DNA of 64,000 nt, from NCBI RefSeq assembly GCF_008933115.1, contig NZ_WBVO01000008.1:62001-126000 (forward strand), read 5' to 3'. Position numbers and translations under genes: made by a program. Position 1 is the first letter of the stretch. Every line of letters starts with the position of its first letter. This stretch comes from Phaeocystidibacter luteus. Its GTDB lineage: Bacteria > Bacteroidota > Bacteroidia > Flavobacteriales > Schleiferiaceae. Of the stretch, positions 5,739 to 60,539 are shown piece by piece. The notes beneath the pieces were generated by a model. That model worked only from the letters and a program-made list of their open reading frames with translations, did no database searches and was not told where the DNA came from.

Positions 5739-6035
5739 CTATCTACGAGCCATATTTCTAATGAACTCTCTATCATAAACATCTCCGCCATCTACCCTAC
5801 TGGTGAACTGCGGAGGACAATAATACCGATCGTGAATTTCGGAACGTTCGGCAAAGCTTGGTTCCCCTATTTTAAAAGGGTCTGTTTGCGAAGCAATTCT
5901 AGGGAGACCTATGGATGGTACTGACAACTCTACCTCAATAGGTTGAATACATCTGGCTTCTAACTCAAGTGACTCCTGAGCAAGCCCGACAAAACTGAAT
6001 AGGACAAGGAATGAGAGAGCAAGTCCTATTTTCAT
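5739..6035 (-). CDS. Small secreted protein of unknown function (98 aa)
   Basis: A predicted exported protein with signal peptide MKIGLALSFLVLFSFVGLAQ and a mature chain of about 78 residues that contains two cysteines (EARCIQPIE and RYYCPPQ). The tail, FIRNMARR, resembles the tail of its upstream neighbour, YLRNTPRR, and both chains end there, which suggests that the two are diverged copies or share a C-terminal feature. The start overlaps the stop of the neighbour as ATGA (6032-6035). No family is recognised. The gene is very short but the signal peptide, the coupling and the neighbouring genes of the same kind make it likely to be real. Confidence 0.68.
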   Translation of the reverse strand: MKIGLALSFLVLFSFVGLAQESLELEARCIQPIEVELSVPSIGLPRIASQTDPFKIGEPSFAERSEIHDRYYCPPQFTSRVDGGDVYDREFIRNMARR

Positions 6036-25790: not shown

Positions 25791-27185
<1,395 letters not shown>

Positions 27186-27208
27186 ATCACATCCTTCAAT
27201 GTATATGG

Positions 27209-27238
27209 AAAGGCTGCCTGAGAGGGTGGCCTTTTTTT
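27209..27238 (+). terminator. Terminator of gdhA
   Basis: AAAGGC at 27209-27214 pairs with GCCTTT at 27229-27234, extended by imperfect inner pairs (TGCC with GGGT), and runs into T7. Confidence 0.8.
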
Positions 27239-27669
27239 ATGGATATGCGTGGTGGAATACTCGAATGTGTTTCTCGCAAAACCGCTATTATCAAAACCAA
27301 CTTAGCGGACAAAAACCGCAAAAATGGTTGGTATGCGTTAAAGCGCCGTGCCTATAGCTGGGAATTCAATGCAGCTATCAATTTCATGACAGAAATAGGT
27401 GTTCCCTACACCGGTTTTGCGCTTTTTACACACCAGTATGATTTTAATATTGCGGTTTTGCGAGAACCAGGTCACGCGCATCCGCTAAGCTCATCCTCCG
27501 CGAACTCTCTCCACCACGTAAACCTCATATTCTCCGCGAGAAACCTCTTTGCCCCCGTTTCCCATAGCCTACCTCCCAAAAAACCGTTAAAACCCCTCCC
27601 CCCTTTAAACCTATCTATCCCTCCCCACATCATACCCCCGAAATCAGTTCATCACTAATTCAAGTAATC
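27239..27669. repeat. Gene-free stretch holding a 196-bp MITE-like element (27271-27466)
   Basis: The stretch between gdhA and the Spy-like gene holds an element bounded by perfect 15-base inverted repeats: TTCTCGCAAAACCGC at 27271-27285 and GCGGTTTTGCGAGAA at 27452-27466. Inside, 27335-27461 aligns over its full length with 60069-60197 in the composite array (shared GAATTCA, GCAGCTAT, GTTTTGCG, ATGATTTTAATATT and GCGGTTTTGC blocks). The 200 bases after it are C-rich and low in complexity (CCTCCGCGAACTCTC, CTCCCCACATC), like the tail of the other array. A 139-codon reading frame spans the region but is not protein-like. No target-site duplication is evident. Confidence 0.72.
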
Positions 27670-28281
27670 ATGATAATCAACACAAAATCAATAGGCCGAG
27701 TGGGACTAGTTTTAGCGCTAGCATCAACGACAGCCTTTGCACAACCGGAGCGTCCACAGAATATAGAGCATCGCCTGGAACGCATTACCGAAGAACTCGA
27801 GCTTTCAGAGGAACAACAGGCTCAATTGAAGGAGAAACTTGATGCCTTTAATGCCACAATGAAACGTCAGCGTGAAGAAAGACAGGCTCTAACAGAAGAA
27901 TTGAAGGCAGACATGCAGGAGATTCTGACTGAAGAGCAGCAAGAGCAAGCTCGCGAGTTGATGCGTGCGAATAGAGGAGAACGCCGACATGCTCATGGCG
28001 AAAGAGGTCACAGAGGGGAAGCTCGCGGACAGGAGTCTCACGCCGAACGCCGCGAACATCATCCAGATCTTGAAACCATGGCCGAAGAACTCGAGCTTAC
28101 ACAAGAACAGCAGGAACGACTAAGGGCCGTCTTCGAACAACAAAAATCAAAAATGGAGGAACTCAGAAGTCAACAGCGCGAACTTCAGGAGAGCTTCAAA
28201 AAAGAGATGTCTGAAATCCTCACGGAGGAGCAGATGGAACAAATGAAAGAGTTACGTCGATCACATCGTGGTCGTAGATAA
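27670..28281 (+). CDS. Spy/CpxP-like periplasmic protein with internal duplication
   Basis: An exported helical protein of 203 residues (signal peptide ends at AFAQ). It contains two copies of the same unit, at about residues 35-98 and 130-198: ELELSEEQQAQLKEKLDAF and ELELTQEQQERLRAVFEQQ begin the units, and EILTEEQQEQARELM and EILTEEQMEQMKELR end them. The LTxxQ motifs are those of Spy/CpxP, which act as periplasmic chaperones or stress sensors. The linker (about 98-130) is rich in His, Arg and Glu (RRHAHGERGHRGEAR), which might bind metal ions. Family placement is reasonable; the function is inferred. Confidence 0.78.
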   Translation: MIINTKSIGRVGLVLALASTTAFAQPERPQNIEHRLERITEELELSEEQQAQLKEKLDAFNATMKRQREERQALTEELKADMQEILTEEQQEQARELMRANRGERRHAHGERGHRGEARGQESHAERREHHPDLETMAEELELTQEQQERLRAVFEQQKSKMEELRSQQRELQESFKKEMSEILTEEQMEQMKELRRSHRGRR

Positions 28282-59683: not shown

Positions 59684-59797
59684 GGTGAAAGTCGGCCCTT
59701 TCCGTGACCCGGCACGGGCGAAAGCACCGTGCCTATCGAAAGTTCCGACCCTATCCTAAGCCCGGCACGCGCTAAAGCGCCGTGCCTATCGAAAGTT

Positions 59798-59934
59798 CCG
59801 ACCATATCCCAAACCCGGCACGCGCTAAAGCACCGTGCCTCTTGCCTCGTTTTGCGCCATGTCCGTTCACCGACGGGTTTTTCTAGGCACTCCGATGATT
59901 TTGATTTTGGCGGTTTTGCTTTTTGCGATTTTGC
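59798..59934 (+). repeat. 137-bp direct repeat, copy 1
   Basis: Matches 60309-60445 with one difference (GTGCC here, GTGAC there). Contains the GGCACG hairpin unit, a small CCGT/ACGG stem followed by T5, and the GCGGTTTTGC core. Confidence 0.9.
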
Positions 59935-60308
59935 AGCTTGCCCGACTACCGGCGGGAAAAACACCCCCGCGAACACACCTCGGGCTAAAGCCGCGAGGCT
60001 ATGATAATTATCCCCGCCAGCCGGCGGGGAATCGCATCAGAATCCCAGCTATATCCCAAGCCCGGCACGCGCTAAAGCACCGTACCAAGCGAAGGGAATT
60101 CAGCGCAGCTATAAATTACAAAACGCATGTGGGCGATTCTCCGCACCTGTTTTGCGATTCTTGCACACTCCGATGATTTTAATATTTGCGGTTTTGCAGC
60201 TTGCCCGACTACCGGCGGGTGAAACCCGCACCGCGAACACACCTCGGGCTAAAGCCACGAGGCTATGATAATTATCCCCGCCAGCCGGCGGGGAATCGCG
60301 TTAGAATC

Positions 60309-60445
60309 CCGACCATATCCCAAACCCGGCACGCGCTAAAGCACCGTGACTCTTGCCTCGTTTTGCGCCATGTCCGTTCACCGACGGGTTTTTCTAGGCA
60401 CTCCGATGATTTTGATTTTGGCGGTTTTGCTTTTTGCGATTTTGC
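60309..60445 (+). repeat. 137-bp direct repeat, copy 2
   Basis: Second copy, offset by 511 bases from the first. It runs directly into GCGAGAAACAC, the right border of the array. Confidence 0.9.
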
Positions 60446-60539
60446 GAGAAACACACACGATGATCCACCACGCTCATCCCTCATTCTCACTACGAGCGTC
60501 CTCTCCGTGACCTCTGATTCTCTGTGTGAGGCAACCCCA

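Follow-up and report, generated by a model that had tools for sequence, protein, structure and literature searches.

Between gdhA and the next gene in the genome of Phaeocystidibacter luteus lies a stretch of 196 bases bounded by inverted repeats, which raises the question of whether a miniature inverted-repeat transposable element (MITE) inserted at this locus. The first-pass annotation of the DNA analysed here (a stretch of 64,000 nucleotides, hereafter the window) read the feature as a MITE and allowed alternatively for a palindromic repeat with a different mode of spread; the evidence favours this alternative. The window copy is ordinary, and the interesting part is the link between repeat and transposase, since the family to which the copy belongs points to a REP-like system.

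An inverted-repeat structure downstream of gdhA

The two perfect 15-bp arms are, as originally described, exact reverse complements of each other, the left one reading TTCTCGCAAAACCGC (Table 1). The 64-kb window contains no other perfect 15-bp inverted pair separated by 30-200 bp, and none of 20 first-order Markov windows contained one. The perfect arms sit within longer imperfect arms, which are identical at 42 of 56 positions (75%). The RNA fold of positions 27261-27476 has an energy of -71.9 kcal/mol (z -5.1), a value as low as that of none of 200 shuffles, and an Rfam search of positions 26900-27900 returned no match. A gdhA terminator, recognised by eye at about 27210-27238 and unlisted by a simple terminator scan, lies immediately upstream of the feature. 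The description of the 196 bases as lacking a credible gene also holds, as the sole long frame (27239-27658, 139 aa) passes through repeat sequence and makes no convincing gene. Elsewhere in the window, a short frame at 25301-25510 matches the four-helix-bundle family TIGR02436 over approximately the first half only and is probably a truncated copy; its surroundings are rich in GGTTGGAGG repeats.

Table 1. Repeat features in the window, in window coordinates.
Feature	Position	Strand	Basis
Left perfect 15-bp arm	27271..27285	+	Direct sequence reading
Right perfect 15-bp arm	27452..27466	-	Direct sequence reading
Left imperfect arm (56 bp), a dispersed tail module in the orientation opposite to the main copy	27268..27323	+	42/56 identity; reverse-complement similarity to tails elsewhere
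Right imperfect arm, the tail module of the main copy	27415..27469	-	Arm alignment; coverage profile
Repeat unit of the array type, comprising hairpin remnant, core, tail and spacer	27334..27561	+	Coverage profile; 27322-27561 matches in contigs C2, C5 and C7
Decayed hairpin of 23 nt, GGTATGCGTTAAAGCGCCGTGCC; consensus when intact, GGCACGCGCTAAAGCACCGTGCC	27330..27352	+	Sequence, consensus, fold
ATAG hairpin foot on the GCTTTAGC strand (CTAT on +)	27352..27355	-	Sequence, tag counts
Second locus of the same family, an array of CTAAAG hairpins and tails	59711..60450	+	Found in the same window

The structure is a copy of a dispersed modular repeat

We searched the P. luteus genome (3.2 Mb in 27 contigs, designated C1, C2 and so on) with positions 27251-27486 and obtained 42 matches, so that other copies exist; the best of these span 27335-27461 and not the 196 bases, and the matches of a longer query reach 27554-27561. 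In the genome stretches examined, the profile of coverage starts at 27334-27340, continues unbroken through 27466 and ends at 27556-27561, while the left arm has reverse-complement similarity to other copies from approximately 27245 to 27323. The expectation that similarity would be confined to the inverted repeats is therefore contradicted, as there is no stop at 27271 either. A search with an intact unit gave 85 matches, and the 15-mer of the arm, allowing at most one mismatch, is present at 41 places in the genome versus 3 for the reversed control.

A typical unit consists of a hairpin (GGCACGCGCTAAAGCACCGTGCC) followed by CTATTG or CTATAG, a core of approximately 100 bp, a tail of the form GCGGTTTTGC(CTTTTTGCGGTTTTGC)GAGAACCAC, and a spacer leading to the next hairpin; some units carry a second upstream hairpin, CCTCGGGCTAAAGCCRCGAGG. 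The hairpin of the window copy has kept its right half and the ATAG foot, with a broken stem (-2.1 kcal/mol versus -6.3 kcal/mol for an intact copy). The tail of the window unit faces a second, inverted tail-like module at the left, and these two modules are the arms, so that one dispersed module, present in both orientations, accounts for the pair. We dropped the idea that the left arm is merely a truncated inverted tail, because other left ends align as a tail-like module that often faces a tail; it is for this reason that inverted pairs recur in the genome. The 196-bp feature is thus an ordinary fossil repeat, a decayed copy of a repeat dispersed through the genome.

These observations bear on the MITE reading, according to which the feature would be a non-autonomous DNA transposon whose ends are TTCTCGCAAAA and whose movement depends on a DDE transposase that recognises these inverted ends. 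A noncoding dispersed repeat with inverted ends shared by other copies is indeed what we find: the 15-mer has its 41 places, 11 outward-facing pairs of ends no more than 800 bp apart (some sharing an end) occur in the stretches examined, and in one pair, of 699 bp, the matching ends are longer and enclose a GxxExxY gene. However, the reading of the arms as the limits of an element finds no support, because similarity extends beyond them and most ends are single array tails. Furthermore, the pairs vary in size from 126 to 796 bp, and no transposase was seen inside a pair in the stretches examined (approximately 0.4 of 3.2 Mb, with the 41 end sites counted genome-wide). The lack of a visible target-site duplication, remarked upon at the outset, extends to all 11 pairs (0/11) and counts against a MITE. 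We therefore regard a true MITE as improbable. The 196-bp size of another pair, C2:110772-110967, is a coincidence, as the insides differ.

Comparison of sites with and without the element yielded no clean empty site in two genomes of the same genus, because in both of them the next gene is a different one; the sequence following gdhA is also different there, and free of the element. A search of 39 relatives gave no match to the unit; the matches there correspond to gdhA alone, except for a single one of 28 bp in the region of the terminator. The hairpin GGCACGNGCTAAAGCANCGTGCC shows the same restriction: with up to two mismatches it occurs at 82 places in P. luteus versus none in each of the 39 relatives, and with up to three mismatches at 96 places versus none for the reversed control. 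Among 67 P. luteus hairpins, 65 lie outside open reading frames of 120 aa or more. Tail modules are also dispersed without hairpins, and so something else may move them.

Several further forms of the repeat were observed. At C3:37941-38639 (L224:542-1240), the GxxExxY gene noted above (TIGR04256, 140 bits) is flanked on each side by a long inverted tail, the two tails matching each other and resembling the window arms in type, and this arrangement may represent a gene-carrying form of the element; the other P. luteus GxxExxY gene has no such tails nearby. In three loci (L010, L012 and L016) and at window positions 59920-60460, a GC-rich palindrome of 22-23 nt (AGCYTGCCCGCCAGCCGGCGGGT type) is found between GCGGTTTTGC and the following ACCAC; it is missing from other tails and resembles a nested mini-insertion. 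Two tail modules approximately 10 kb apart, C1:499305 and C1:509652 (L225 and L226), apparently have more than 100 bp of adjoining inverted match. Additional tandem arrays, with periods of approximately 183 and 213 bp, occupy L058:9985-10681 and L019:4450-9260 and have a GGCACGTGCTAAAGCACCGTGCC hairpin in units that otherwise differ. Hairpin arrays are also found within the first few hundred bases of contigs C1, C2, C7, C21 and C26, where the assembly therefore probably breaks, with the likely result that arrays appear shorter and copies fewer than they are.

The regular spacing of the folded repeats (approximately 210-250 bp) first suggested attC sites in the cassette arrays of an integron. 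No integron integrase above the family cut-off is encoded in the P. luteus genome, and sub-threshold integrase matches resemble those in all 14 control genomes; we rejected this idea as having almost no chance of being correct.

CTAAAG hairpins surround two Y1 transposase genes

The P. luteus genome contains three divergent Y1_Tnp genes, on contigs C11, C1 and C23, and no multicopy insertion sequence of the Y1 type. CTAAAG hairpins form arrays around two of the genes, C11:6444-6785 and C1:16766-17110. At C11 the arrays extend on both sides of the gene and are built of units of approximately 114 bp that each contain GGCACGYGCTAAAGCACC... and an inverted second hairpin, and the C1 gene is accompanied by 206-bp units with GGCATGGGCTAAAGCCACATGCC and inverted GGTCAGGGCTAAAGCCCGTGACC. 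The C11 hairpin at position 5961 is an exact match to the dispersed 23-mer; the hairpin alone is common to the window unit and the C11 array, and their surroundings differ. No GCTAAAGC was found within 1.5 kb of the C23 gene.

All three proteins pass the NCBIfam model transpos_IS200, and proteins of this group match structures of ISHp608 TnpA. With the model REP_Tyr_transpos (NCBIfam, cut-off 80 bits), the P. luteus Y1 proteins score 30-33 bits or give no match, and among four proteins tested three score 30-39 bits while the fourth has no match. Their motifs fit TnpA-Y1 subclass 1.2 as defined in the accessible text of Quentin et al. 2018 (PMC6006769): the subclass motif Y---Q--HH is present in the C1 (YVKNQRNHH) and C23 (YIENQVKHH) proteins, and in the C11 protein (YVRDQWCKH) one H is replaced.

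The hairpins accompany many Y1 genes in Bacteroidota

We scanned named genomes with an alignment of the Y1 proteins of five relatives (three with hairpins already seen and two without), which yielded at least 567 confirmed relatives, 79 loci being among the matches listed; at least one of the 79, L142, probably supplied a query protein. In these Bacteroidota loci the density of GCTAAAGC per kb is 9.05 at 0-150 nt from the gene, 5.14 at 150-300, 1.71 at 300-600 and 0.70 at 600-1000, and falls to 0.11, 0.09 and 0.09 beyond 1 kb, which amounts to an approximately 80-100-fold higher density next to the gene than at a distance of 1-6 kb. The reversed control is absent within 600 nt and has a density of 0.03-0.05 per kb farther out. 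Since GCTAAAGC can encode Ala-Lys-Ala, which would raise the distant background, the contrast is if anything understated. The motif is present within 300 nt of the gene in 75 of 79 loci and on both sides in 51, and the nearest hairpins are mirror-oriented in 44 of these 51; none lies inside the gene.

The stems of 451 hairpins have a mean of 3.26 pairs versus 1.74 for re-paired arms (maximum of 200 shuffles, 1.94), and 145 of 307 same-strand spacings measure 30-49 bp. Reading the foot of 162 strong stems from 56 loci on the GCTTTAGC strand gives ATAG for 88 of them, ATTG for 30 and GTAG for 2, while foot tags of any kind occur 17 and 12 times out of 162 in two control windows. In P. luteus itself only 34 of 67 hairpins have an ATAG or GTAG foot (controls 4 and 17, of any kind). 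A stem bulge of 1 nt on the left and 2 nt on the right is found in 43 of 163 strong stems, and likewise in P. luteus copies. Stems can also be specific to a genome: ACGGGCTAAAGCCCGT, with at most one mismatch, is present at 16 places in genome G029 and 4 in G054, while each of the remaining 11 genomes has it at 0-1 places, and G029 and G054 each have a Y1 gene flanked by ACGGGCTAAAGCCCGT. Counts of GGCTAAAGCC in relatives proved unusable, as in the genome with the largest excess (G010) the seven copies inspected by eye resemble Ala-Lys-Ala coding sequence and not hairpins.

In a phylogeny of 46 proteins (27 from the 79 loci and 19 from P. luteus and relatives, two distant ones being omitted), the presence of nearby hairpins requires 4 changes of state versus 13.0 in shuffles. 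The C11 and C1 proteins pair with support of 100/99, but the branch connecting this pair to the main hairpin clade has weak support (73/38). Among the 19 genes from P. luteus and relatives in the tree, 13 have no GCTAAAGC within 300 nt. Eight of the 31 Y1 loci first taken from these genomes contain GCTAAAGC, and the hairpin link therefore belongs to part of the subclass.

It could be argued that recombination and replication slippage alone amplified the repeats and that Y1 genes are bystanders collecting hairpins, as the tandem arrays have regular periods and the tails contain low-complexity GCAAAAA steps. Such a process would not be expected to produce an association with one protein class over many genera, a mirror orientation of the hairpins, or genome-specific stems matching those beside the gene, and we consider this explanation unlikely, if less so than a MITE.

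Proposed origin of the repeat

We consider it probable (roughly 0.65) that the window feature belongs, as a dead copy, to a family of REP/BIME-like mosaic repeats that Y1 transposases drive. The hairpin-containing unit would face its own tail module repeated in inverted orientation, the two tails forming the apparent terminal inverted repeats, and the mobile or recognised part would most likely be the short CTAAAG hairpin. The P. luteus Y1 (HuH-tyrosine) transposases would bind this hairpin in its single-stranded form, probably on the lagging strand during replication, and cut near it, guided by the foot tetranucleotide (ATAG here). Hairpins would thereby be copied or rearranged into doublets and tandem arrays, neighbouring sequence being carried along and tails ending up inverted. 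We infer that a Y1 protein spread the family and that the window copy may have arisen by the same route.

Comparison with known systems

The proteins described here share with IS200/IS605 the transpos_IS200 family and the ISHp608 TnpA structure match. The end hairpins of IS200/IS605 elements lie on one strand, whereas here they are mirror-symmetric around the gene (44 of 51 loci). In TIRYT genes and TIRtrons (Di Nocera et al. 2013, PMC3733652), too, Y1 transposases occur together with inverted repeats, and some of these repeats constitute families; in the accessible text they are reported for other species, and the string CTAAAG is absent from the main text, as distinct from the supplements.

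A close parallel is REP/BIME with TnpA-REP (RAYT), for example in E. coli and H. influenzae. Both systems have extragenic hairpins occurring singly, as doublets and in arrays (here 65 of 67 outside reading frames, and 82 places), with a gene between inverted hairpins (44 of 51 two-sided loci), genome-specific stems and a tetranucleotide at the 5' foot. That REPs flank RAYT genes in inverted orientation is already known from Nunvar et al. 2010 (PMC2817692), whose REPs, in the portions drawn on here, are from gammaproteobacteria only and always have GT[AG]G; the Haemophilus influenzae REP given there, GTAGGGTGGGCTTtAGCCCACC, has the GGGCTTTAGCCC core also seen in our hairpins. The E. coli TnpA-REP is described, in the part of PMC8266576 used here, as binding a hairpin with a stem bulge, cutting at CT and requiring GTAG, and its hairpin plan agrees with that of the Bacteroidota hairpins in having a foot, a stem and often a bulge, the loop being fixed. 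ATAG retains the last three letters of GTAG, and therefore a cut at CT is predicted for the Bacteroidota enzymes. The two systems differ in the foot, which here is mostly ATAG/ATTG and not GT[AG]G (GTAG in 2 of 162), in the protein motif, where Y---Q of the IS200 class (all 9 aligned rows) stands in place of Y---NP, and in the hosts, here Bacteroidota.

Similarity to TnpA-Y1 subclass 1.2, as presented in the accessible text of PMC6006769, extends to the H-u-H, WQ and Y---Q--HH motifs, short proteins, low copy number and occurrence in Bacteroidetes. The table in that paper gives "no" under REP for this subclass, whereas many such genes are found here between repeated hairpins; for Bacteroidetes genes of subclass 2.6, nearby hairpins of an atypical kind were already known from the same text. 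Searches of open-access literature, supplements and subscription papers aside, yielded no account of CTAAAG hairpins accompanying subclass 1.2. On balance we lean towards the view that a Bacteroidota-wide Y1 branch near IS200, so far listed without REPs, has its own CTAAAG REP system, with an ATAG/ATTG foot, mirrored fixed doublets and scattered genome-specific stems. If so, REP-type repeats would have originated beside the IS200 branch separately from the class 2 GTAG REPs, providing an independent case, on an IS200-like branch, of how REP repeats arose from IS200-type transposons. The changed guide tetranucleotide would predict the cut position of the enzyme, and the system would suggest a source for much of the intergenic repeat DNA that is so far unexplained in Bacteroidota.
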